A stretch of 64,000 nucleotides of DNA, taken from contig VCJN01001647.1 of the NCBI GenBank assembly GCA_006384855.1, positions 1-64,000 on the forward strand. The letters are read 5' to 3'. Under the pieces are notes generated by a model. It ran no database searches. It had not been told where the DNA came from and saw only the letters and a list, made by a program, of their open reading frames with translations. Each line of letters starts with the position of its first letter. Position 1 is the stretch's first letter. The translations under genes were made by a program, and so were the position numbers. This document shows positions 46,116-64,000 of the stretch, piece after piece. The stretch comes from Tetraselmis striata. Lineage: Eukaryota > Chlorophyta > Chlorodendrophyceae > Chlorodendrales > Chlorodendraceae.

Positions 46116-49100
46116 TCACTTTTTGGCGCGCAACTTGGCGAGCTCCGCCTTGAGCTTCTGGATCTCGCGCGTCTCAAAGCTGCGGCTGTTCTCGTTGGTG
46201 ACCTGCCGATGCATGGGGCAGGTGCGGAGGGGCATGTTGGCCGGCATGGTGGCTGCACACACAGTGTCTGATTGCGGAGGGTGGCAGGGAACAGGCGGGG
46301 CTGAAGGGGGGAGACACCGATCCCATGAGACCTGGGAGACACATCCGGGTGCCGCCCGATGAACGGTAACCCGCAATACTCGTCTCTTTTCACAAGTTGC
46401 ATTCCTTGCCCGCTGGGTCGAGCGGTGGTCTCTTGTATCAAAGGTCACGAGTTCGGTTCCTGGATCTCCCAATTGGGGCAATATCGACCCGGCGTGTCCT
46501 GGGTTTCCCCGGTTGACGCATTAGCCCGAATGAGGCAATGGTCTACGGGCTATGCCAGACCTACTATGACTGCAGTTGGCGCACGAGGTCAAGTGCTGGG
46601 GCCGATGACCCGGGCGGGCGAACTTAACTCTTTACTTTCACCACTCTGTAAGCGGGCTCGCATGCCACCTTATAAATGGGATATAAGAACAGTTGCTATG
46701 CAATTGTCTAAACTCGACCTCCCACAGGCCGAGTGGGTTTGCTGTTCACAATGTTGTACGTAGCGCGCCAGAGCCCGCCGCACTTGCACATGCATACTCG
46801 TACACAAGCTAGGTAACGGACCGGGAGGGGAGGGGGGGGGGGGGGGGGGCAATGATCTTGTGACACCTGATTCACACACAGACACAGACACAGACACAGA
46901 CACAGACACAGACACAGACACAGACACACACGGGTGTCGCCGAACCCACGGGAACCCTCGACAGCAGTCTCTAAGTGGGCCTGCATGAGATCTATAATAA
47001 GAACAGTGCATACGTATCGCGACTAAACAATTGTCGAAATCCGACCTCCCACAGGCCGGATGGGTTGCTGTTCACCTTGTTGGATGTGCCCGGTGCGCGA
47101 GAGCCCGCCGCACTTGCAGATGCTTAATCATAGAAGTGTGTATAAGCGATGCATAAACGGCAGTCGCTGAGCGGGGCCGGATGGATGGCGCAACGGGCGC
47201 CAGGCATGGCGGAGGCCCCCCCTGACCTGCTTCACCCGCGTCGCGTAGTCCAGCGAGCTCTTGGTCTCCGCGGCGTCCGACGCCAGCGGGCTGACGTTGA
47301 CGACCATCAGCGTCTTGGCATTGCCGCCCAGCGAGTCGCTCATGAGCTGCGTGAGCTTGTGGTTGCGGTACGGCACGAACGACTCCCCGCTCGTCAACGC
47401 CGCCACCACGTCGCCCAGCGCGGACAGCGACTTGTTGATGGCGCGCGCCTCATCCAGACGATCCTGCCGCCACGGCACAGACCACGGGCACATCTCAACA
47501 CTTGATATGTCGTATGGGTTCAAGTTATTATATGTCATTTCTAGGATTTGGGCTCTGTTGCATTTAGGTTCCAGATGTTTTGGTACCTACAGGGTTTATT
47601 GTGTATCTTCGTGTCTCAAATCATCAAGCGTGTCAGCTTGCACCAGGTCAGACTACAATAAAAGCCATTTTCTAATGGAATCGATATTGGAAAAGTGTGG
47701 CAGACCTATCGTTTTCACGCACTGACCGCTCTGCTCTTCCGAAGGCCAAGACAACCTTGACATATTGCTACTCGAGCTGACAAAAGGGAAGGAAAGAGAA
47801 GCAACTCTTAAACTTGCTGGTCGGTATATACACTCGAATGGCGAATGGATGGGTTGGGCGTGGCAGTGGCGATGGTAGCCGGCCGTTGTGTCACCTTGTC
47901 GTTGATGGCACCCGAGCGCCCGACGCGCTCGCTGCCCGCCAGGTCCACGAAGGTGAGCTTGCTGTTTGACTTGGTGCCCAGCGTCAGGTTGGTATGCTCC
48001 ATCAGGATGGTGAAGACGAGGTGGGAGCGGGAGCTCTACGCAGTGGTGGTGGTGGTGGTGGTTGGTTGGTTGGTTGGGAGAGAGGGGGGGGGGGGGGGGG
48101 GGGGGCATGCGCAGTACTTGTCAGTCGACCACGTAAATGTGGCACCGGAATCAGCAACAAATGCTCCGAAACCACGAATCGCGAGAGGGTGGTTTTGGAG
48201 CATGGCGGCTCCGAAACCATATCCGTCGCGGTCCGTGCATCGAAGCCAGATACACAGTATTCGATGGCAGTTTCGACCTTGTATGAACACAGGACCCCTA
48301 CCGCTGTCTCAAAAGCACACATGCCTACATTGGTACCTTACATATAACATACATAACATACATAACACTATAGGAGTGAATTAGGGCAGAGGGGTCCTGA
48401 TCCTTTACTAACGGGCGACATAAGCGGATGGCTGTAGCCATCCGCACAGCTGGCAGTGGTTAACATCCCCAATGGCCAGGACTGCCGCAAAGTATCGAGT
48501 CCAGCAGCACGTTGGCGGCCCCACCTCGGAGTTCATCTTGGTCGCGGCCGTCTTGCGGCCCTCCAGGCCGGTTTTGAACGCTGCCGCCAACTCCTCCTGC
48601 GACGCCACCGCCACCACACGCGCCCCGTCCACGAGCACCGCCCCGTTGGCGTCGCGCTTGATGGCTAGCTTGCCCGAGGCGGAGGGCGCCAGCAGGTCCA
48701 GCAGTGAGTCCTGCGGGGGTGAACACCAAGCAGCGCGGCCACACATCCTTGAGCCACCGGTCAGCATAGGCAAGTCAGAGCATCATCGCAGCCGAGAGGC
48801 ACAACGAGGGCATGGGGGGGGGGGGGGGGGGGTGTAAAGACAGGCTGGAGACATTGTGATAAAGGTGGCGACTGAGGGACTTGTCTCCGGATGGTGGACA
48901 TGAATAGCGTGGATGGATAACATGAACGTGGATGGTGGCATCAGTAAAGGAATAGCAGGGCGCACGTCACTGCTTTCGGATGTGGTCTCAAAGTTGTTAC
49001 TAGCAGGGATACACAAACCGGGCACGCGTTGCGTGGTGTGCGCATTAGAGCTTGATGGCCTGATCGCCCCCGACCATCCATGGCGACCGACCAAGCGGGC

Positions 49101-49530
49101 ACGGCGACTAAGACTACGCAATACTGCGTACACTACAACATGCCAGTTGCCCCGAGCGACCATGTGGAGAACTCCCGGACGGGCGAACTGAATCAGGGCG
49201 AGCCATGCCCTAAGCGCCACCCAATTGACGTGACAAACATAGAAGGCCATCGCCGCACACCTGCCGAAAGGTCGAATGCCGAATGCGTGATCAACATAAG
49301 GCGCTCGGCGCCCTTACTGCTTACTTCAATGAAAGAACCCAGCCTCGTACCGATACTCTGATAGACATCCACCATCATCGCGGAAGGTAGTATAGTTTGT
49401 GCAACACAGCGATAGTACAACACATTACAGATATGTATCGCATGTCGGACCACGTACTGCGTTTAAGGGTGGCTGCTTTGCCATGTATCATCTACTCAAT
49501 GGCAAGATGCTGCTGCTATCCGAGTGGCAG

Positions 49531-49576
<46 letters not shown>

Positions 49577-50170
49577 AAAGGGGGGGGGGGGGGGGGGGTG
49601 AAGGGGCTCATCACCTGGTACAGCTCCAGCATGTAGCATGACACCTTCATCTCCACCGCCGCGTCTGCCGCCTGCGCAAAGATGCCCTCCATCGCGCGCG
49701 GGATGATGCCGGGCGCGGCGGCGGTGCCGGTGATGGTGTGCGTCTTGCCGCTGCCTGTCTGGCCGTAGCAGAAGATGCACACGTTGTAGCCGTCGAAGGC
49801 GGACTGGAGCAAGGACTGCATGGGGAAGTGAGGGGAGTGTCAGCAAAGGAGGGGGTACCTGGCCAGCAGGTGGCTAGGCACACTACACAACTCTGGCAAC
49901 AGTACCCGTAGCGGTGATGATGAAGGGGGGGGGGGGGGGGGGGGGGCAATCGAAGAGGCACACGGGATTCGGCGAGAAAGCGGCCCACACATCCTGACAT
50001 TCGCCCATAATTATCCATTGATTGCACTTTTGATTGAGAGGCGAAACTTCGGGCTGCAGGGTGATAGGTCCAGGGGTGAAGCACTGATTCCGTTAAGGAT
50101 CTGCAACATCACAAGCACGCACCTGGGGGCGTTGGGTTGCACACCTCACGGGCACATGCGGACATGTGAG

Positions 50171-50227
<57 letters not shown>

Positions 50228-52588
50228 AAGCAGCCACACACGCGCACACACACACACAATCCAGAATTCTCGAGCTAGCCGAAGCTGATGCGTGTCGCGC
50301 ATATGCGGAAAAGGGTTCCACAGCAGCTGGCCGCGGCAGAGCAGTGATATGACACAAACGGTCGCTGAGCGCTGATACGGCGTCAGTCAATAAGCACGGC
50401 GGTCCTGGATTGGGCCTGCGGCTCGCGGGGGTTGACCCACACGTGGCGCACCTCCGTCTCGGCGTACACCTCCTCCTGGGAGGCCGCCGGCACGAAACAG
50501 GTGTCGAACTCGTACTTGCGGGGTTGTGGGGCGCGCCCGTCGTCAACGGACAGCGTGAACTCGTCCTTCACCTGGCGATGGCGGGCGCCCACGGAACAGC
50601 GGGCTCTTAGCCTTGCAGCGCAGGAAACCTGTCAGGGCGCATGGACGGCCGCGCCGCACCTAATGCCTAATTGGCGCTAGCTGGCCTCCCGCTATACTGT
50701 CATGTCTTGTTCATGCAGTTGACGGAACCATCTTGGTGATATATCCGAGCTATGGAGATAGTGTCAACCTAATATGTGAGTACCGCCACCAACGCCAATC
50801 AGGGAAGATAAGGACATCTGGTGAAATAAGCCTCAAGTTGAGCATGCTTGCAATCTAAGATCCGCTCTAGTTCCACCACACTTCCATCAACATGTGACCT
50901 ACCTAGAAAGGGGGGGGGAGGGGGGGACACATTCCCCAAAATTTGCCAGACCACACCGAGTATTGAGAACGGAATTCTGGGCACGGTGTGTCAGAAACAA
51001 ATGATTGGTTTGGGATCTGCAGACAAGTTGCATGGTACGGTTGAGCATATGAATATAGAGTGGATGGACCTATACAGTGACACAACCTCTTTAATGAACA
51101 CTTGGGGCCCCTACCCCCTGTTCACTATATGGGCGCGTTCACCTCAGGGGTATAAATTAAAGTACCATCACACTCATTTATACCCCCCCTGTTTAGAATG
51201 GGGGTGGGTTCATTATAGGGGTCAATACATAGGCATGTGTCATTGTATGTGCATTGCACACTGGTTGAGCACAGTACCAACATGCACACCCCCCCCACAC
51301 CACCACCACGACATTGCGCCAAGGGAACGCACCTCCACCGCCGCATCCGCGGCCTCCTCGGCGCGGCCGTTGCCCACGATGGCCGGCCTCACGCGGCACA
51401 TCACCCGGATGTTGCCCTTCATCTCACGGATCTGGTTGTAGGCCTTCTTGCGCAGGATGGCCTCCTTGCGCAGCTCCAGCTTGAGCGACGCGGCGGCCTT
51501 CTCCGCCGCCTCCACGCGCGCCTGCCAAAAAGAGCACAGCAGCCACCGTCAGAGCGCGCCGGCTGCTCAGGGGTATCCAGGGGCCCCGGGGTGCCAGCCG
51601 CCGCACCTTGTAGTCCTCCGCGGCTGCGGCGCTCTGCGACATGCAGGCCAGCTTGCCCTGGGCGCGGATGAGGCACCAGTCCAACGTTCAGGCACGATCC
51701 GTCAGACAACGCTGACCACGAGTCCCGGGGGAAGGCACCACTGCAGCGTGACAGCATGTCCAGAGCGCTGCATGCGTGTGCTGTATGCAGATGGATAATA
51801 GCGGAACATTCTAGCAGAAACAATAAAAAGACACGCGCATCGCAGGGTTTATTGCCGCCATCAATGCTTGTCTGGGTTTCTTTCGGGAACTTGAACCATG
51901 AAACACTGCACAGAATGTGAGGGAAGAAACAACATCTCATATCCGACCCCTCCTCCCCCCCTTCCTCTCACCTACCAAGACCGCAGGCCCATAAGCAAGT
52001 GGCGCAGCAGACATAGACAAACAGCCAGACCAATACAAACACACAAAGTGTTGTATGCAGACCGACGCACGTACGCAGCCCCGTGTTGTCACGAGGCCTC
52101 AAATTGCCTTGCATACCACCGATCTACGAGTATAGGGATTTTATGTTAGGGTTCAGCACTATATCTTTTGTCTGCCTGTGCCTGCTGGCTGGTTGAGCCA
52201 ACCATCGCGCCTGGGATCAATAAAACTGCGCCGGCGCCCTCGGCAGGATGCTGGCTGCGGACAACTGAGCTGATGGGACGGCCTAGTGTGAAATAGTCTG
52301 CGGGGGGGGGGGGGGGGGGGGGGGGGGCACCTGCATGGCCGCCAGCTCTGCGTCTTTGGCCGTCAACTTGGCCTCCGCATCCGCGACGCCCTGCGCCTTG
52401 TCCTGGCCCGCCTCCATCACCTGCACGCCCGACCGCAGACATGTCAGCCGGCTCCAGTGGGAGTTGCCACGCCATGGGGTTTCGCATGCTGGCGTACATG
52501 CAGGAGCCAAATCAGAATGAAAGCCGCCTGTAATTAGTTATGCATCTGCTGTGATGCACACACTCTGGGATGACACGCATCCAGTGTT

Positions 52589-52638
<50 letters not shown>

Positions 52639-53505
52639 TTATGGAAGAAATGTGAAACGGTGGATACAATTCAGAAAGCACCCCGGTGTTCTCAAGACAT
52701 GAGGCAAAACAGTCCCCTGTTCACGAAACCTGCAAACCCAATGGGGTGTTCCCGGTAGTTCTGTGCCCCCCCCCCCCCCCCCCCCCTTCAACTCGCAAGT
52801 CCTGTTGGCAGGAGTGTCTATTCGTAGCATTATTGCAACGCGTGGCCATTATGCAGGGCTATGCCGTGGCGCCACGACTGCAGCTCACAGGGCGTCCCAC
52901 GATGCGCCAGGGCTTCCCCTGCCACGCAGGGCCTGCGCACCGCCCACCGCCAGGCGCCGCACCTGCATCTCCAGCTGCCCCACGAGCGCCCTCAGCCGGC
53001 GGACCTCCGCCTGCGCGCCCTCCAGCTGCGTCTGCGCGGCCGCCAGCTGCCCGCGCATGCGCTCCACCTCCGCCTTCAGCCGCTGCAGCTCCGCCGAGTC
53101 CACCGCGCTCTGCCGCGGCACAGCCCCACACACAAGAGTCACTCCGACCATACGTGGGGACACCAATCAGGCTGTTGGCGGCATTGCTCGCATCTATGGG
53201 CTGGAAGGAGTGACGGCTGGCAAGGTGTTGGGGCTTGGAATACAGCGAATGGGACTGCGTTGAACCTCCTACATGGAGTGGCCCGGCCATCCCCCCCCCC
53301 CCCCCCCTTCCTCCGTTTCCCTGTGCCCCGCCAAGGGAAGCACAGCACGCAGCGCTCACCGCAGGCGCCGAGGATGCTGCCGCGGAGGTGAGCGCCGCCT
53401 CCGCCGCCTCCGAGCGCTCCTCCGCCGCCGCTCTGGACGCGGACAGCGCCTCCGCCTGCGCCTCCAGCTCCGCGATCTGCGCCATGAGCTCCTTGATCTT
53501 GCGCA
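46116..53505 (-). CDS. Kinesin-14 type C-terminal motor with preceding coiled coil
   Basis: Minus-end-directed microtubule motor of the kinesin-14 family, recognised by a C-terminal motor joined to a neck ending [14 protein letters not shown]. Exons: 53505-53360, 53109-52963, 52420-52331, 51657-51607, 51521-51333, 50571-50452, 49815-49615, 48710-48525, 48035-47895, 47463-47227 and 46202-46116; after the first, all join in phase 0. Motor motifs in order are [19 protein letters not shown] (P-loop), ESSRSH (switch I), VDLAGSERV (switch II), [11 protein letters not shown] and [19 protein letters not shown]. The sequence resembles the KCBP branch ([16 protein letters not shown]), but no MyTH4-FERM or calmodulin-binding tail is seen; the protein ends about 20 residues after the motor ([12 protein letters not shown]). 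Upstream exons are heptad-rich coiled coil. They probably continue into the VHS-GAT exons at 54.2-59.0 kb. Confidence 0.9.
46405..46660 (+). mobile_element. tRNA-like SINE candidate in the last kinesin intron
   Basis: A TGGGTCGAGCGGT box A-like and a GAGTTCGGTTCC box B-like segment lie about 36 bp apart, as in a tRNA-derived pol III promoter. The intervening anticodon arm does not pair well, so this is not a working tRNA gene. An unrelated body of about 190 bp follows. Confidence 0.35.
46671..47122. repeat. Direct duplication of about 125 bp within an intron
   Basis: 46671-46795 and 46988-47122 share ATAAGAACAGT, CGACCTCCCACAGGCCG, TTGCTGTTCAC and AGAGCCCGCCGCACTTGCA. The copies have diverged and flank a minisatellite and a G run. 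Confidence 0.75.
46873..46930. repeat. (CACAGA)n minisatellite
   Basis: About nine 6-bp units, CACAGA, in the last kinesin intron. Confidence 0.9.
49533..49573. repeat. (GT)n microsatellite followed by a G run
   Basis: GT repeats, then a 19-nt G run at 49580-49598, within 45 bp of the splice donor at 49615 of the P-loop exon. Confidence 0.9.
50173..50226. repeat. (GA)27 microsatellite
   Basis: Uninterrupted GA dinucleotides in the kinesin intron between 50452 and 49815; CT on the transcript strand. Confidence 0.95.
52591..52638. repeat. 48-nt C run
   Basis: The longest homopolymer in the window; G on the transcript strand, in the kinesin intron between the exons ending at 52963 and starting at 52420. 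A second C run follows at about 52767-52786 in the same intron. Confidence 0.95.
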
Positions 53506-54168
53506 CTGCCAGGCCCTTAACAGGGATGGGGGCACATCCGGCACACCATCCGCCGGGGGGGGGGGGGGGGGGGGGGGGGGAGAGAGCAAACTCAGCGGCA
53601 TGTCTCGCGGGCTAATTTCAGCATCACCCTCATTAGCAGCCGCCGGAGCCATTGTGGCTCCCTCGCCATCATGCCACTACATGCAGCCGTTGCACGACCC
53701 CTCCCCCCTGAGGATTCGCATCAATTCGATTCGCATCAACTTCCGATTGCACCCGAAATCCATCTGCGCGACATATTTGCGTTTTTTCCTCAGATGATGT
53801 GACGATGTTGGAATCGGCGCGTTTTATCGCGTATCACCAATGTCACACCTCGCTGCAGAATAATGATATCACCTCTCTTCCTTCGTGATATCCCCCTGCA
53901 GCATCCGCGGCACCATTCGCAATCCTTAATGTGCCGCCTCACCACGTCGGCGGGCAGGTAGCCCGTGATGGCGGGAGTGCGAGTGCGCTGGAGATAGGGC
54001 GAAATGCTACTGAATGCCCATACCTGCCAGCACCGAGCACAATGCGGGTCTCCCTGGTCAAGCACAACACCACATGCGGTACGAACACACATCACCCCTC
54101 CTCGCCCCCCCAACACACACAAAAGGTGCCATGTGCCCGGAGAGGCGGACCCCTCCCGGGCGCCGAAC

Positions 54169-57100
54169 CTTGGTGTTGTTTATCTCCGTGGAGTGGGCGG
54201 CCGCCATGCCCGCCAGCGCGGCCGCCTTGTTGGCATCCGCCGCCGCGAGCTGCTGCCGCAGCGCCTCGCACGTCGCCTGCAGCTCCGCCGCCTGCTGGCG
54301 GGCCTCTGCCGCCGCGCCGCTGCCACTGTCCACCGCGCCCAGCGCCTGCAGCACGTCCAGCCCCACCTCCTCCGTGTACGACTCCCGACTGCTCCCGCCT
54401 GCGCCGCCCAGCGAAGCGTCAGGGGCGGGCCGCACCCCGTATGGCCGTCACGACACCCACAGGGGCGGCGGTGGCCGTACTGCAGTGCTATTGTGCCTGG
54501 GTCGCTGCCCGCATCAGGACTAACTTCAGGGGCCCCGCGTCAAGCCCCTGCCTTGCTGGACATCAAACACAACACTCCACTGCCATCTCCTTCAACCGTG
54601 TTCAGAGAATCGACCAAGACATCCAAGGTACATGTGATGGTAGGAACACCAGTTTTGGGGAGAATGTAAGGATCTCTTAACAGACTGAAAAAACAAGGTT
54701 TTGGCCCCGCCATGCACTGAATGATTCTCCCTCCCCTCTTTACTAATGGATGGAGAAAACAAAAGGGGGTGATGGTAAGCGGCGCACCGGTGCCGGCGGG
54801 GGCGCGGTCACTGATGTCCAGTGACAGCAGTGTCTGCCAGCGCTTCAGTGCATCCTGCCGGGGAGGGGGGCGGCACCGCACCGGCGTCAGCGTAGCAGCG
54901 GGACAGCAGGAGGGTGCGAAGATGTGCCGCAGGGCGGGGCAGTAGGTGGGCAGCGGGGCGGTGCCTGGAGGTCGTCGTTGGTCTGCAGCAGCTGCCCCAG
55001 CGTGGCCTCGTCCTCCGTACAGTCCTGCAGCATCGACTCCACCTGGCCTCCCCAGCTGCCAGGTGGCGTGAGCACTCAGCCACGGGAGACAGGGTAGCAC
55101 CAACCCTGTTTGAGGAAGTGCAATGGCGGGGAGGCGTTCGGGGCTGGGGAGGTTGGGGGGGGCAGGGGAGCGCACTCGTAGCACTTCTCCGCCTTAACGG
55201 CCGCCTTGACCAGCATCGCCTGCACGTCCTCCGCCGACCTCTGCCCTGTGCGCTGCTGCTGCGCGGCGTCAGTGCACACATGGATGGCCTCCCGCAGGCT
55301 CTTCACGTCCTGCGCGCACTGCGCCACCTGCCAGGCACGTGGCGGGGTGGGGGGGGGGGGGAGTTGGTAGAGCAGATGGGAAGAAACGGAGAGGCAGGGT
55401 CTGGGCGGAGCTAACGCAGGGTTCAGCCAATGGCCAGCGGGGTGCGGTAGAAGGGTGGCAGGCCTGACCCTGGCGGCCGTTCTGGCGGTGGTGGTAGCAG
55501 GGGCGGGGCTCGACTGGGGCGACGGCGAGGCATTCTGGAAAGAGGCACTGCCGGCACCACCGCGCAGCGAGCCTGCGAGGCACAACCAGGGGCAGTCGCT
55601 GTCTCAGCCCAGGTTAGGCGGAACTTGCTCGACAGAGCCATTCCGGGACCCAACGCCCCCCGACTGACTGAGCCCCCCGAGCCCATCCTAGGGCTCAGTT
55701 CAGCCCCTGCAGTCCGACCTTGAGCCAGAAATTGGGATGGAGTACCGTCAAAGGGTCCCAGGCTGATCTTAACTTGAATGCAGTTCAGTTCCGAAACCAC
55801 AACGTCAGGCTACACCGGACTGAACGGACGGAAGGTCAGCCCCCCCCCCCCCCCCCCCCCCCGGCCCCCCCATCCACACAAACACGCACTTGGTGGCGAC
55901 TCGCTAGTGGGGCAGGCAGCTCGTGAAATAGACGCAGCCCCCTGCCAGAGCGACCCTCGCTCGGCCACCGGACTGGTCGGGCCTGATACGCACGGCGCAC
56001 CTGCGGGCGAGTCCGGATTGGAGGGCGGCTGAGAACCGTCGTCGCGCCCCTTCCTGCCGCTGAAGAGCCGCATCGGGACCTCCTCTGCGGTTGGAGCGGC
56101 TGTCGGCTGGGGGAGAGAGCCGGCGGTTAAGCTGCCTGGGTCAACGGCACGCCTGCGCGCTGGGGTATCGGGCAGCGCGGCTGCGCCGCGGTGTGAGGTG
56201 GTGAGAGGCCGAACGTTGCGGTGACCAGCTGATGGAGGGCGCGGCAGGCCAGATCAGATATGGGTAGTCGTGCTGGTAGGTCGTCGGATACCGGTTCGTA
56301 CAGGGACAGGTGTGACTCGTTTCATCGTGCGACCGGTACCGCGCAACTTGTGCCGGTATATTTCCTTTTTGGTACAGGGAGAGCGTCAAGAGAAAGAAAG
56401 CACGGAAAGTGTGCCGGTATCGACTACCCGTAGCGACTACCTATCTGTCCCTGTACTCCTGCTTCCCAACCACTGTACCTTTTGATAGTACCCGGGTACC
56501 GGAAGCGGCAGAGCTGAGGTACGCTAGAGTCGCTAGTCGCGACTTGGCATTGCTGTCGACCGCGCCATGTACGACACGCGTACGACTTAATATAGATATG
56601 AGAAGAGCCGACATATAAAAAAACTGATTCATAAATGATGGGAAAATGAGATTACCCCTGCTGTCATCATGCAAGAAGTGGCGCTCATCACTTTATTTCC
56701 GGAAGCAACTGAAACATCTAGCATGTTTCATTTGAGAGCCCTCCATAACGTACAATACCGAAATATGATGTACATACCGTGATAGAATGCGTGCTGGGCC
56801 GGTTCAATTATTTGCGTAGCACTGCACATTGCTGATTGCTGCGATGCTGTCGGAGTCGCTATCGCCCAGCACATCAAATCAATTCCCAAGTTCTGAAATA
56901 GTCGGTACTAAAAACAATTTTGACCTGAACCAGCGGTAAGAGTACAAAGATTACTTGTGATGGGTTTGCTACGAGTACGGTACGGTACAGGGATAGGGTT
57001 TGCTACAGAATGAACGGAAAGTATCGAGGAAGGGAAGCAGCCTAAGTTAAGGATTACTCATATCAGTATGTGGAGCGCTACAAATAACCGAGCATGTACC

Positions 57101-58995
57101 CCCCCCCCCCCCCCCCCCCCCCCCCGCTTTCACTGTTTTCCCGGTCGCCTGGGACAATGGGGCGGCCTCCTAGAGGCGGCCGGCGTTGCTTTCACTCTGA
57201 AGAGGTTCATGATGTGGTACATAGTACATAGACCAAATGAAGTCTGAGCATAGCCTGAGACCAAATGAAGTTACTTTCTAATTAATCTCAGTTGGTGTTT
57301 CTGCATGCATCAGGAAAGTGTGGGAGATAAAGAGATAGAAGAGAATGTGGCGCCATGCTGCGGTTTAAGGGCACTCTGCCAATGCTCGTTAAAGCATAAC
57401 CAGTGATCGTGTGATGAAAGGATGACCGCCGTTGATAGTGTGATGAAATGGTAACAGCCGCACCCACCAGCAGATTTAAGAATCAGCAGGTCTTCGTGCT
57501 AACGATGGGCAGTTGATCAGTAAGCATGACATGGACGTGGCATGGCAGCACTCACCATCGTGTGGAGGAACGCGGGCTTTGAATGAGGAGAGTTGCACAG
57601 AGCTCGCTGGGCGCAGGGTGCTCCCTCTGATGGTAGAGGAGGGATCGCCCCCAATGGGCGCAGGCTTCATCACCCCGCACTCCTCCGACTGCAAATTCCA
57701 AGCGCGAAGGGGGGATACACCACCGCCCAGAAAGAGAGGCACTTTTTGCACGCCACGGCCCTTCAGCGCCTCCCCATGCGGCTGCGGCTGCCGGCTGGTC
57801 TCGAGCAGGCGGCCCGCGTTGGCCGCGTTCTCTGCATCGATGCCACTGCCCATCCGTGCAGCAATGAGTGGCCCCGATGGTGACCGGCTGGCCACCGAAT
57901 CCAGACTCAGCACCACCTCTCCATCCTTGAGCGTCTCCATCCGAATGCCGCCAGGCTTTCCCATGGTGCTGCTGCCCAGAGCTCGCATGAAATCTACCCC
58001 AGGCTCAAAGCCATACTGCGCGAGCAAGAGGAGCAGCATGCCTCAGTCCTCTATTCATCAGTCCCCTGGCATGGCGCATGCCGCAGTCATATCTGTCTCC
58101 TGCGGCGTCTCAGGGTGATGGTGGCTGACGCAGGTACATCGGCGATTGCAGGTGGACTGACGCTCCGCGTACACGCACCTCCAGGACTGGCCGCGCGATG
58201 GTATACGGGATCGGCACAGCAACATGCTTCTGCCGAATTTCGTAGCAGGCCTGCTCGTACACGTGGCCCATGTCATCACCCCTGCAGCGGGACAGCACCC
58301 GGAGGTTTTAGGGCTTGAGAGAGTGAGGATATTCACTGTGGGGATAGCGTGGGGTCATACAAATTCGTTTCCATCGGAATAAGCGTGCTTGTATCAGCAT
58401 ATCTGTGATGGGCAAGGATGATCAGAGAGGCTGTCTTAGCGGTGCGTGCCTGAAGGTGAATGCCCAGTTGGCGCACAGCTGGACGGCTGCCTGCTGGACA
58501 CGCACGTCATTGATGCCATCACGGCGCGCTGACCCATTGCTGTCACTCGTTGCAGTCGCCATCTGCACAGGCAACAAGGCCGTGAGTCTCCCAGAGGAAG
58601 GACGGTACACTTGCCACTGCAGCATGGGGCGCTGTGCGCAGTTGGGCCCTCACTCGGATGAGACGTGCCGGCCATCGCAGCTTGTTGCCGCACACGCATA
58701 TGCACATTTCATGGAAGTTGAGCACCAGCGTATCGAGGACCTGAAATAAGCAGCGTTTCAACCTCCTGCATGTTGTCACCATTCCTGGCTGTTTTCATGA
58801 TTAGCACGGCACGCTAGAGGCGATGAGGCACTTGCGCACCGTCAGGCTCTCGAGCGCCGTTGGTAGGTCTGGTGATTTGACCCGCGGTTTCAGCGCCATC
58901 AGCACATCGGCGTAAAGGTCTATCCTCTCCCGCTGGCTCCTCAGTGGCACCATCGCGATGCAATGTATCAGGTCCGACACGCGCTCCCAGCTCAT
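54169..58995 (-). CDS. VHS and GAT domain exons, probably the N-terminal part of the kinesin gene
   Basis: VHS and GAT domains occur together in endosome/trans-Golgi adaptors (TOM1, GGA, plant TOL) that bind ubiquitinated cargo. Eleven exons join with every phase agreeing, 558 codons: 58995-58813, 58740-58654, 58562-58450, 58281-58179, 58015-57556, 56084-56001, 55572-55469, 55327-55176, 55055-54965, 54854-54788 and 54398-54169. VHS: SWERVSDLIHCIAMVP, VLDTLVLNFHEMC, VQQAAVQLCANWAFTFR, HVYEQACYEIRQKHVAVPIP. A Ser/Pro-rich linker follows. GAT: VKSLREAIHVCTDAAQQQ, MLVKAAVKAEKCY, MLQDCTEDEATLGQLLQTND, then DALKRWQTLLSLD. The last exon is already coiled coil (ATCEALRQQLAAADANKA). Two introns (58449-58282, 54964-54855) use GC donors. 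No stop or 3' end is seen before the kinesin exons begin 660 bp further on. The first VHS helix may need an exon upstream of 58995. Confidence 0.75.
57126..57555. other. Intron DNA within the VHS-GAT gene
   Basis: Part of the 1.5-kb intron between 57556 and 56084, with a C run at about 57100-57125 on its left. No other gene is seen in it. Confidence 0.5.
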
Positions 58996-59198: not shown

Positions 59199-60066
59199 GC
59201 GGGAGGGGTCGCGGGACCGAAGCTTAGTCGCCCACGACGCAGCAGGAGCCGACGGTGGGGCGTGTCGGCGCATGCACCCGTACCTTCTTCGCAGAGTTGT
59301 CCGCTTTGCGACCCCTGGACATCATACGCAGAATTGCTTGCAGGTCCTGGACAGGCTGAGACGCGACTCCGGGGACTCGCATGGTGCTGCCGATAGCACG
59401 ACGATAGCTGGCCTATGGAAGGCCGATGGCCTTCTCTCCTTGTCGCGCCTGCGATACCCGCGCTACGAAACCCCCGGTAAGTGTACCTGTACTAGTCGCG
59501 AAAGGTTAATAAGCCTGCCCGCCGCCCGTTCCGCGTTTATGCGTGTATGCCCTGGTGATGTGGCTCTGCGGTTGTTGAGCAGTGTTCGTGCCAGCTTCCA
59601 GTTGCCGACGCGATGTGCGCCCCGCCGTGGGTTTGGCAGTTCCCGACAACCCGGGACACCAGGAGTATTGTTTTGTATTTGCCCGCCCGGCGTCGGCGCC
59701 ATCGGCGAGTGGCGCGCGACTGCGTCGTCTATATCAACCGCCCCCCGAACCGGCGCGGCGTTTCGCGTTCTGCTGATGCTACCGTCCGAGAACCCGGATA
59801 CCCCTGCTGGTACGAGGACTCCGCCTGTAATCGTCTCCCGATAGTGTGAATTACAAAAATGCGATTCGCATATCCACATGGAGTACAGCAGGGTAATATG
59901 AGAACCATACATAGAAGAGGGGCCTTCCGGCGGCTTCTGTCCTCTCCCTCCCAGGTGAGCCCTGCCCTTGTGTTTTTTTCTCCTTCTCGGTACAAGGCAT
60001 GCAGGCCAGTGTTGAGGCTGCTGGCGTGGAGTTCCCTCGGCTTGGGCGATCGCGCACGCTGATCAT

Positions 60067-61015: not shown

Positions 61016-62085
61016 GCCGGTACCTGTACGGGTGGGAGCAACCGGGATTAGCGACGTACAAGGGAATAGGACAATATAATAATTCTTGCAACTACCCGAA
61101 TACACATACTAAGGATTACCATATACGAAAACGCCATCAAGACGCAGCGACTATCCTACCCATGCAGGTACCGACATGCGGCGCACGGGCACATGTTCGT
61201 TTTTCTTCACTGTATTTACCAATTATCATATTTATGGGTGGCCTATGTTATATTAAGGGGTGCCACAACAAATCCACGTGGATGACAGCATTCTAAATGT
61301 CCTTTTCTGGGTACTCGCACACCCCTTGCCAGCATCTCGTGCCTACTTTCTTGTCTTAAGTTCGGGACAGCAGCATATGAGAACACAAAATGAGCCATAA
61401 GCAATAACGTTTATATACAGCACTGTATGATGAGTACGATCCCAATAGATAGAGGGTGTAGGAATCGAAATAATAGCATACATATGTACATATATATGAA
61501 TATATATACATATATATGAATATATATATATATATATATGCTATTATATATTTGCTATTATATAAATATATATAAGTATATATATATTCTCACTGCCGCG
61601 CTAATAGATCAGCATACACGAGTGGTGCCTAGTACGAGCACCACAGCGGTGTGCCTCCTGCAGTCTTCTGTCTCAAAGATACCAGCTATGTTTACAGTTT
61701 AATCATTAGTACCCTCGTCGCCAGTATCTCTTGATATTGAGCTCGGAATGATTGGAGCTGGAAAGTTCCGGACATCTGCCTGCTGGTACATCACAATCAC
61801 GGCGAATTCCTGCCTTGCACCGGCGCTGCCAAAGCGCCAATTATAGGCAACTAATAGCAACAGCAGAGACAAGATATTTACAGTTTAGCCTAGGGCTACA
61901 GCTAGACACCCGATTGGGGCGGGTGATGCCCTTTAGCAACCCCCAGGCTGGGCGTGTTTAAGCATACCATACAGTTTAGCAACCAAGAGTTGCCAAAAGT
62001 CACAACTATTTGCCGAATCACGGTTATTGTCAACTGTGTTGATTTCTAACTTTCTCCCTAGAAAGCGGTGGCACCTCACGATTAC
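61016..62085. other. Intergenic, AT-rich, no gene recognised
   Basis: Contains a TA-rich microsatellite at about 61480-61590 and repeat R3 at 61909. It includes the presumed 3' UTR of the secreted protein gene. Confidence 0.5.
61909..61955. repeat. Dispersed short repeat R3, copy 2
   Basis: Matches 43889-43945: GATTGGGGCGGGTGATGCC and TTTAGCAACCC. Confidence 0.6.
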
Positions 62086-64000
62086 TTACTTGAGTTTACG
62101 ATTGCGGAAAAATGGGAAAGGCCTGCTTGTGTCATAAAACGGGTCGCCGCTGCTGGGCACCGGGCGCTGCTGTTGGGTCATGGGCTGCTGCTGGCTGGGA
62201 GAGCTGCTCCAGCTGGGCGCGAGGCTCCTCCAGAAAGCCCACCAACTGTACAGCATATTCATGTTTCCGCCATCGAGGGTGAACGCATCAGGCTTCGACA
62301 TGCCGAAGTTGGGAGAGTCCATGCGGTCGTCGAACATGTTGCCGGGGGGGGAGGCCACTGGCGGAGGCGTGCGTGGGGAGGGCAGCTCGCAGCGCCCGGA
62401 GTTGGACAAGTCTGCGGCCTGCAGAGATGCGGGAAGCCCGCCTCCGGCAGAGATGCCGACCACCCGAGCACTGAACGACAGCACCTTGACAAAACCAATG
62501 CCGATGCGACCATCCTCAAAGAGAGCGATCTGGAAGTCGTTGCGGTGGAAGGGGCTGCCAAACTGCGGCACGTTACGGAACGTGATCACGACGGTGTCGC
62601 CAGTCTCCTTCCATGAGACCTCGGACTCGCTGTCTGGCGCCAGATCCGAGAGGAGCCCAGAGATGCGCGGCTTGTCAAAGTGCAGCACGGCGAGATCAGC
62701 GCCAGCGAAACTGGCATCCTCTCCGTCCCCGAAGGTCACGTAGCCATTGCTGGCCACGTACGCAGACGTGTACACCTTGCCTGGAGCACAGCAGCGCCAG
62801 ATCGTGTGAGCAAGATTGTGAAGTACACGAAGGGTACAATCTCAATGCGGGAGGGACAGTGAGGCAAGGTGACACGCTTGGTCCGCAACGGTCACTGCGT
62901 ACCGAAGAAGGGGAAGTTAAAGTTTCGGAAGGTGATCTTGACCACACTCTCATCCGTGAGGGGCAGCGCTTCGCTGCCGTATGTGTCGATTGGGAACACT
63001 TTGCCGCCCGTTGTCTTGCAGACAGTGTACTCTGACATGCCCAAATCGCCTGGCGTGAAGGTCAGCGATGTGCCCTGGAGATCGAAGGTTGTCCCCCGAG
63101 GAAAAAACTCGACGGGAGGCAGCGTCGCCTGGTACTCCTCCATGGCTTGAGACAACAGACCGTCGGCACATTTCAGTTCAGCTCACTCATTCACTCATGG
63201 AATCTGAAGTGTAGGCATGCAGCAAGTCGATTGGAAACAAATCACCAGATAGAGGGAGAGAGCTTACCAGGCTCAGACTCGGGCGCATATGTGGGACCAG
63301 AAAACGGCTCCAGCGACAAGTCCGGTGTGGATGACCCCAAACCCTCGGTCGTGGGAGGTGCGGAGGTAGTAGGCAGAGGGACATCAGCAACCTCAGCAGT
63401 GGTTGGCGCCGGGGTGGTGGTGGCGGCGTCCTCAACCATGTCTTGCCCCGGAGTGGCGGCGTCGTCCTGAGGGCCAAATACCCACCCTGCATCGGTCCAA
63501 TACCACCTCGGTATGGACGACTCCGAGGTTGGCTCAGGGGTGGTGGTGGGGACCGCCTCCTCGGTCGTGGTTGGCTCAGGAGTGGTGGTGACGGCCTTCT
63601 CAGTCACGAGTGGCTCCGGAGTGATAAACACAACCTCCTCAGTCACAGTTGGCTCAGGGGTGGTGGTGGGGACCGCCTCCTCGGTCGTGGTTGGCTCAGG
63701 AGTGGTGGTGACGGCCTTCTCAGTCACGACTGACTCCGGAGTGATAAACACAACCTCCTCAGTCACAGGTGGCTCAGGGGTGGTGGTGGGGACCGCCTCC
63801 TCGGTCGTGGTTGGCACTGGAGTGGTGGTGACGGCCTTCTCAGTCATGACTGACTCCGGAGTGATAAACACAACCTCCTCAGTCACAGGTGGCTCAGGGG
63901 GGGTGGTGGGGACCGCCTCCTCGGTCGTGGTTGGCTCAGGAGTGGTTGAGACGGCCTTCTCAGTCACGACTGGCTCCGGAGTGATAAACACAACCTCCTC
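62086..64000 (-). CDS. Secreted protein with Thr/Pro-rich repeats and nidogen-like beta domain (5' end outside the window)
   Basis: Three minus-strand exons with agreeing phases: 64000-63268 (open to the window edge), 63145-62903 and 62780-62086. The first encodes a mucin-like stretch of about 40-residue repeats rich in Thr, Pro, Glu and Val (TTPEPTTTEEAVPTTTPEP). Then comes a beta-rich domain of the kind found in secreted and surface proteins: VKITFRNFNFPFFG, joined to VYTSAYVASNGYVTFGDG, KPRISGLLSDLAP, VSWKETGDTVVITF and FQIALFEDGRIGIGF. The tail is low-complexity Ser/Pro/Gln and ends RNRKLK before the stop. Thr/Pro repeats suggest O-glycosylation and a cell-wall or extracellular-matrix role. 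A signal peptide should lie outside the window. Confidence 0.8.
63531..64000. repeat. 120-bp coding minisatellite
   Basis: About four tandem copies of a 120-bp unit (40 codons), each containing GACCGCCTCCTCGGTCGTGG and AACACAACCTCCTC at the same spacing. The copies differ by a few substitutions and continue past the window edge. Confidence 0.95.

Follow-up and report, generated by a model that had tools for sequence, protein, structure and literature searches.

We analysed a 64,000-nucleotide stretch of DNA (the window; positions 1 to 64,000 of contig VCJN01001647.1, here C1332) from the 224,097,584-base assembly GCA_006384855.1 of the chlorophyte Tetraselmis striata, and rebuilt from the DNA the exons of a kinesin gene within it. 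The gene lies on the minus strand at 59382-46116, and its 23 exons splice into a single stop-free frame of 1061 amino acids, in which a VHS domain, a linker, a GAT domain, a coiled coil and a C-terminal kinesin-14 motor follow one another. Among its 22 introns, 20 are of the GT-AG type and two are GC-AG. A sequence-only reading of the window, made without database searches, had placed VHS and GAT domains on the same strand upstream of a kinesin-14 motor in one protein, with no stop before the coiled coil of the kinesin, and the open frame bears this out. It had also joined eleven in-phase exons. Eleven exons that fit this description were found within 58995-54169, with eleven kinesin exons downstream of them, but a further in-phase exon at 59382-59284 had been missed, and the ATG at 59382 is a likelier start than 58995. 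Together with the relatives described below, this structure indicates that the locus almost certainly encodes one protein of VHS-GAT-coiled coil-kinesin-14 architecture.

The VHS domain occupies the first five exons (all coordinates on the minus strand). Exon 1 (59284..59382) carries the ATG and the lead into the domain, ends in a GT donor and is in phase with exon 2 (58840..58995), which encodes VHS helices and the tryptophan equivalent to W26 of STAM1. The VHS core follows in exon 3 (58654..58740; VLDTLV...), exon 4 (58450..58562; VRVQQAAVQLCANWAFTF) continues the domain and has a GC donor, and exon 5 (58179..58281) encodes the C-terminal helix of the domain, to ...VPIP. The linker spans exon 6 (57743..58015), which opens with YGFEPGVDF, exon 7 (56001..56106), which holds MRLFSGRK and with it a possible internal start at 56073, and exon 8 (55469..55572), which runs into GAT. 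The first part of GAT is encoded by exon 9 (55176..55327), the stretch LGQLLQTNDDL, which by analogy with GGA3 would be the ubiquitin-contact helix, by exon 10 (54965..55055; GC donor), and the end of the domain (ALKRWQTLLSL) by exon 11 (54788..54854). The coiled coil starts in exon 12 (54169..54398), which ends ...EINNTK, and resumes in exon 13 (53360..53515) beyond intron 12 (53516..54168; GT..AG), the doubtful junction between adaptor and kinesin. Exons 14-16 (53109-52963, 52420-52331 and 51657-51607) encode further coiled-coil stalk, exon 17 (51333..51521) encodes the stalk end, the kinesin-14 neck and the motor start, and exons 18-23 (50571-50452, 49815-49615, 48710-48525, 48035-47895, 47463-47227 and 46202-46116) encode the motor, a short C-terminal tail and the stop. 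Many of the introns (e.g. at ~57100-57125, 52590-52640 and 48815-48830) contain long, nearly pure runs of G or C, some of them near splice sites.

A second copy of the locus is present on contig C1583 (13519-25542; loci L026-L027). In a base-by-base alignment of the two copies, the length of every exon was unchanged and all 44 splice dinucleotides of the refined model were identical, including those of the two GC donors; exon 1 was identical in both, and intron 12 was likewise retained. Over 10081 intron bases the copies differed by 69 insertions or deletions; at that rate some 22 would have been expected in the 3186 exon bases, which had none. The copies differed at 15 of the 1061 residues. 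Nonsynonymous (dN) and synonymous (dS) divergence was 0.0067 and 0.0442 over the whole coding frame, 0.0126 and 0.0546 in the linker plus GAT, and 0.0033 and 0.0466 in the kinesin half; in VHS exons 1-5 (dN 0.0095, dS 0.0383; four residue changes in 186) these values suggest that the VHS exons are constrained. Other kinesin loci were also found in pairs with the same or near-identical scores (contig pairs such as C332/C2788, C861/C845 and C964/C12), and this pairing suggests from sequence scores that the assembly contains both haplotypes.

The comparison of copies also bears on the end of exon 6. An initial model of 1121 amino acids extended this exon to 57556, but between the two copies the interval 57742-57556 showed five amino-acid changes and no silent change, so that it looks non-coding; exon 6 therefore probably ends at 57743, the next exon starting from 56106, as in the splice of the JGI gene model, and the 1121-residue model was dropped. 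Alignment A2, as well as the first searches for protein relatives, the first genome searches and the searches based on A2, had used the longer model. The JGI model itself (TSEL_018831.t1; P0001, 976 amino acids), whose tag Tetstr1 we take to denote Tetraselmis striata, spans VHS residues to motor and agrees with the rebuilt model wherever both are present. Missing from it are exons 1 and 3, the beginning of exon 2 and the end of exon 4, and with them much of the VHS domain, which is thus broken up.

To find relatives, protein searches were made with the Tetraselmis model and with the Mesostigma protein P0008, and the best 120 of more than 2000 matches were taken from each. Nine other proteins, P0002-P0010, align with both halves of the Tetraselmis protein in one chain. 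They comprise proteins of Bryopsis (P0002), Apatococcus (P0006) and Pycnococcus (P0009), two EukProt models (P0003 and P0005), a JGI sequence (P0004), two streptophyte proteins whose tags Chlat1 and Mesvir1 we read as Chlorokybus (P0007) and Mesostigma (P0008), and an open reading frame from an MMETSP transcript, called complete (P0010), in which the VHS-type region is visible by alignment only. The sequence-only reading had proposed a search for the architecture in related algae and had named an arrangement of the two halves at separate loci as contrary evidence; the design was instead found within single polypeptides on both sides of the green lineage. A further protein from an alga of the Pedinophyceae, P0011, aligns over its full length but lacks the ND pair of GAT. 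P0002-P0011 rank above the first KCBP in both match lists, save P0009, which is absent from the list obtained with the Mesostigma query, showing that such lists can miss members. Two other sequences had to be treated separately: a Chara braunii protein (P0129; 747 bits) was rejected as a member and kept out of the alignments and tree, as it consists of repeated kinesin pieces with no visible VHS-GAT head, and P0130, a headless fragment of 575 amino acids, was used in the trees only. A search with alignment A2 returned nothing beyond the Tetraselmis protein itself and eight further kinesins that have neither VHS nor GAT.

Standard domain searches give a mixed picture of this family. The Pfam check of the joined protein that the sequence-only reading had called for succeeded for the motor (Kinesin, E=1.5e-101 on the first Tetraselmis model; the motor spans about residues 718-1034 of 1061), but hardly for the head, and several results weigh against the proposed architecture. 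Pfam VHS matched the first model over only 30 residues at E=0.27 (11.5 bits against a cut-off of 29.8) and was not listed for the refined N-terminal half. Pfam GAT reached E=6.5e-6 (26.7 bits) on the first model, under the curated cut-off of 31, and E=4e-5 on the refined N-terminal half, and the Tetraselmis runs gave 26.7, 23.1 and 24.2 bits, all below 31. A phmmer search of the Tetraselmis VHS piece against solved structures yielded one chance match and no VHS domain, and genome-wide Pfam VHS and GAT searches listed other loci but not the one in the window. Among the relatives, neither VHS for P0010 nor GAT for P0003 and P0009 was listed, and P0011 had VHS under the cut-off (E=0.0036) and no GAT. 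The remaining Pfam results are more favourable. VHS was above the cut-off in seven of the ten proteins P0001-P0010 (P0002, P0003, P0004, P0005, P0007, P0008 and P0009) and just under it in P0006; P0001, with its broken VHS domain, had none. GAT was above the cut-off in P0010 alone and matched more weakly (E 0.34 to 2.4e-6) in P0001, P0002, P0004, P0005, P0006, P0007 and P0008.

Clearer results came from profiles built from the relatives without the Tetraselmis sequence, a VHS profile of ten rows that included P0011 (A4) and a GAT profile of nine rows that did not (A5). The VHS profile matched the Tetraselmis model at residues 34-177 with 68.3 bits and the GAT profile at residues 348-441 with 63.3 bits, whereas the best scores among 500 shuffled N-termini were 4.6 and 7.1 bits, respectively, which rules out a chance VHS match in the Tetraselmis protein. 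Searched against solved structures, the family VHS profile recovered HRS (3.9e-18), STAM2 (5e-16) and TOM1 (2.1e-13); 12 of its 15 matches were VHS domains (HRS, STAM2, STAM1, TOM1, GGA and TOM1L1), and the other three were chains containing designed helical repeats, with E-values no better than 0.016. For the GAT profile, the best eight of eleven matches were GAT constructs of GGA1 or TOM1, with modest E-values of 0.0023-0.028. P0002, the Bryopsis relative, was modelled with AlphaFold2 from an 11-row alignment (mean predicted local distance difference test score (pLDDT) 68.6, predicted template modelling score 0.40). The model shows eight helices at residues 17-156, as in the VHS fold (pLDDT 72-92 by blocks from residue 21), and three helices at 258-288, 294-323 and 328-353 in the GAT region, a number that would fit a three-helix bundle; over the two regions together, block pLDDT was mostly 77-92. 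These helical regions are followed by a long coil of more than 200 residues and the motor. In a Foldseek search with the full model, the first 50 of 1270 rows showed kinesin motors and were thus uninformative on VHS and GAT.

The motor assignment is supported by both motifs and phylogeny. A kinesin-14 neck motif stands directly before the C-terminal motor of the Tetraselmis protein, and the catalytic and microtubule motifs are present, including PYRNHKLT. The closest solved motors by sequence are KCBP (3h4s, E 7.3e-96) and KIFC3, in a range from 7e-96 to 5e-75, and from 1.2e-63 downwards other kinesin-14s (claret, KIFC1, Kar3 and Ncd) are mixed with kinesin-1 and kinesin-3. For motor-only trees, 61 of 227 proteins were chosen by hand, mainly kinesin-14-like with few other kinesins; a quick tree of 60 rows dropped P0127, whose motor piece was too short, and a careful tree of 53 rows left out seven further long-branch outgroup rows. 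The 12 family rows, the headless P0130 among them, formed one clade in both, with a Shimodaira–Hasegawa-like approximate likelihood ratio of 100 in the 60-row tree and support of 100/100 in the 53-row tree. The clade falls beside KCBP with support of just 64/18 in the 53-row tree, which does not resolve its neighbour. By analogy with its family, the motor is expected to be minus-end directed.

One explanation of these data would be that a VHS-GAT adaptor gene and an adjacent kinesin gene had been wrongly joined both by our reading of the exons and by the JGI model. The composition does shift along the gene, the acceptor between GAT and kinesin is AAG where nearly all others are CAG, and a VHS-GAT gene elsewhere in the Tetraselmis genome stands without a nearby motor. 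However, the relatives align with both halves in one chain, including P0010, an MMETSP transcript frame marked as complete, and the 54169/53515 junction lies within a conserved family motif, VKxxAVxRIKELM, which the removal of intron 12 restores; the match between the Tetraselmis and Bryopsis (P0002) proteins continues straight through it, and the other relatives have the motif in varied form, P0010 least. We therefore reject a false joining as very improbable. A somewhat better case can be made that the protein proper starts at 56073 (MRLFSGRK) as a GAT-coil-kinesin, the VHS exons belonging to a separate gene or a second isoform. A 1.6-kb intron lies upstream of exon 7, which offers an in-frame ATG, and third codon positions have less GC in the VHS exons (0.67-0.77) than in those of the kinesin half (0.90-1.00), so that a VHS-less form may exist, which counts against the full-length model. 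Yet in the relatives the VHS and GAT regions stand in one protein, the VHS exons look constrained between the copies, and the YGFEPGVDF that opens exon 6 resembles FERGLDF in P0002, FQQGLDF in P0003 and MEPGIDF in P0006 (FxxGxDF, judged by eye; not co-aligned in A1 or A2), so that we consider this reading unlikely. Since the same design recurs in distantly related green algae, the VHS-GAT kinesin is very probably a real type of motor and not an error of gene reading, and we regard it as a conserved kinesin-14 subfamily of the green lineage with a VHS-GAT head resembling that of TOM1 and TOL adaptors.

This type of motor has apparently not been described. Among the papers listed by full-text searches of PubMed Central (PMC), judged largely by title and opening of the abstract, we found no description of a kinesin with VHS and GAT, or with GAT; an earlier mention is possible, in these papers or in subscription journals, which lie outside this scope. 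The statement of the sequence-only reading that no kinesin of this architecture is known agrees with this for the combination, but was too strong for VHS alone. Within the same scope, kinesins with VHS were found in the TbKIFC1 papers only, besides a bare mention in a 2006 kinesin survey, which names VHS, without a readable species, in the legend of its Figure 11 on domains in kinesins of 19 species and in that legend only, its tables, including that for Chlamydomonas, being without VHS (PMC1434745). TbKIFC1 of Trypanosoma brucei is described as a C-terminal kinesin with an N-terminal VHS domain, whose role in the transport of APOL1 from endolysosomal membranes requires both VHS and motor (PMC7479354, PMC4560804). 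Its VHS domain binds anionic lipids, more so with cholesterol (PMC7479354), and the protein was reported not to localise to the endocytic compartment (PMC4560804), which makes it an imperfect precedent for an endosomal motor. The Tetraselmis protein shares with it the N-terminal VHS domain and the C-terminal motor, but, compared by description, the two differ in that the term GAT occurs zero times in the main text of PMC7479354 and that the trypanosome is a protist far from the green lineage; no trypanosome protein was noticed among the matches listed in either protein search.

Two other systems are closer in one half each. KCBP is the closest solved motor both by sequence and by structure of the Bryopsis model, and shares the C-terminal motor with a short tail. 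In contrast to the VHS-GAT kinesin, it has a MyTH4-FERM tail and forms a separate clade in the motor trees. The alga of the Pedinophyceae that encodes P0011 has a genuine KCBP (P0023) as well. In TOM1 and the plant TOL adaptors, whose VHS and GAT domains stand in the same order as in the Tetraselmis protein, these two domains mediate binding to ubiquitin and membranes (PMC12051064). TOLs, however, have clathrin-binding motifs after GAT, where the Tetraselmis protein has a long coiled coil and a motor; it is therefore not itself a TOL, but may engage cargo in a similar way.

As a whole, the data are probably best explained by a green-lineage VHS-GAT kinesin-14 that serves as a dimeric minus-end motor for endosomal carriers. 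A coil as long as that predicted for P0002, which exceeds 200 residues, would give a dimer with two VHS-GAT heads, these paired heads would attach to endosomes through ubiquitin-tagged membrane proteins and/or anionic phospholipids, and the dimeric motor would draw the carriers towards the minus ends of microtubules. That the cargo is membranous or endosomal appears likely, and ubiquitin as its main signal is a plausible proposal to which we give just under an even chance. The link drawn by the sequence-only reading between ubiquitinated cargo and minus-end transport is, on this footing, a good inference.

The evidence on the ubiquitin sites is divided. We assume that GGA3 numbering can be transferred to the GAT domain of this family and that L280 and D284 have the roles presumed for them in GGA3; the positions equated with L276, L280 and D284 are then L, L and D in nine of the 11 rows, with V at the first position in P0004 and I and S at the second and third in P0011. 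In the VHS domain, the tryptophan at the position of STAM1 W26 is kept in nine of the ten rows with a residue there, while the position of L30 is polar in seven of those ten, so that this site is only half kept, a point against ubiquitin recognition by VHS. In GGA3, L276A impairs ubiquitin binding (PMC2760529), and the VHS domain of STAM1 contacts ubiquitin via W26 and L30 (PMC6659632). With the GAT contacts kept and the second VHS position mostly polar, ubiquitin binding is likelier by GAT than by VHS, and the VHS domain may, by analogy with TbKIFC1, serve lipid binding.

The polar L30 position, the lipid binding of the TbKIFC1 VHS domain and the reported absence of TbKIFC1 from the endocytic compartment also fit a different role for the whole head, which might bind lipids or proteins or serve in autoinhibition or mitotic targeting and not bind ubiquitin or endosomes, and several plant kinesin-14s act in division (PMC1434745). 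We consider such a role less probable, though a serious competitor, given that the GAT contact positions are so widely kept and that both halves of a TOM1/TOL-type cargo module have been retained. An endosomal function of the VHS-GAT kinesin thus remains the reading that we favour.

The motor clade contains chlorophytes and streptophytes, which dates the motor subfamily, and on the simplest view the fusion with it, to before their split. The fusion would have arisen when a TOM1/TOL-like VHS-GAT adaptor was joined, once and early, to a kinesin-14; the motor clade is directly supported by the trees, and a single joining is what we infer from it. The matches listed included KCBPs of land plants and of Volvocales but no protein of the VHS-GAT kinesin type from either group, a pattern that suggests, on sequence matches, a loss in both. 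The green lineage is not known to have cytoplasmic dynein for such transport. We tentatively suggest, with somewhat less confidence than for the ubiquitin signal, that the green-plant ancestor possessed a kinesin-14 resembling the endosomal sorting complex ESCRT-0, whose built-in VHS-GAT receptor hauled ubiquitinated endosomal cargo to minus ends without cytoplasmic dynein. Many chlorophytes and early streptophytes would have retained this motor, whereas land plants and Volvocales would perhaps have lost it.

As a rule, a motor and its cargo adaptor are different proteins, which linkers and regulators connect. Here, an endosomal sorting module and a minus-end-type motor stand in one chain, common to both sides of the deepest split among green plants. 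Should the head indeed bind ubiquitinated cargo, a ubiquitin sorting signal would be linked to microtubule transport in a direct and genetically simple way. The protein would also bear on how endosomes could move inwards in green algae, which are not known to have cytoplasmic dynein, and on whether green algae and trypanosomes gained VHS-kinesins separately.

Elsewhere in the Tetraselmis genome, a second VHS-GAT gene of the same subtype lies on the minus strand of contig C2074 (48975-46140; loci L028 and L031). It matches the VHS profile with 65.9 bits, and its GAT pieces carry CSEW and LLEANDALAGQLRRW; the family motor profile had no match within 28.0-49.8 kb of that contig. This gene may be a paralogue of the VHS-GAT kinesin that has no motor, or a partner of it, or else represent the adaptor type behind the fusion. 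Two further loci, C744:55879-60427 and C1270:19789-24341 (L029 and L030), are near-identical copies. In each, a weak Pfam match to VHS and one to GAT share a strand at a distance of about 4.3 kb, and the two loci probably represent, as far as their sequence tells, the ordinary TOL-type adaptor of Tetraselmis. Within the window, the minus strand at 62080-64000 holds a neighbouring gene that, read by eye, encodes an array of tandem repeats with much Thr, Pro and Glu and, after it, a domain that looks secreted.

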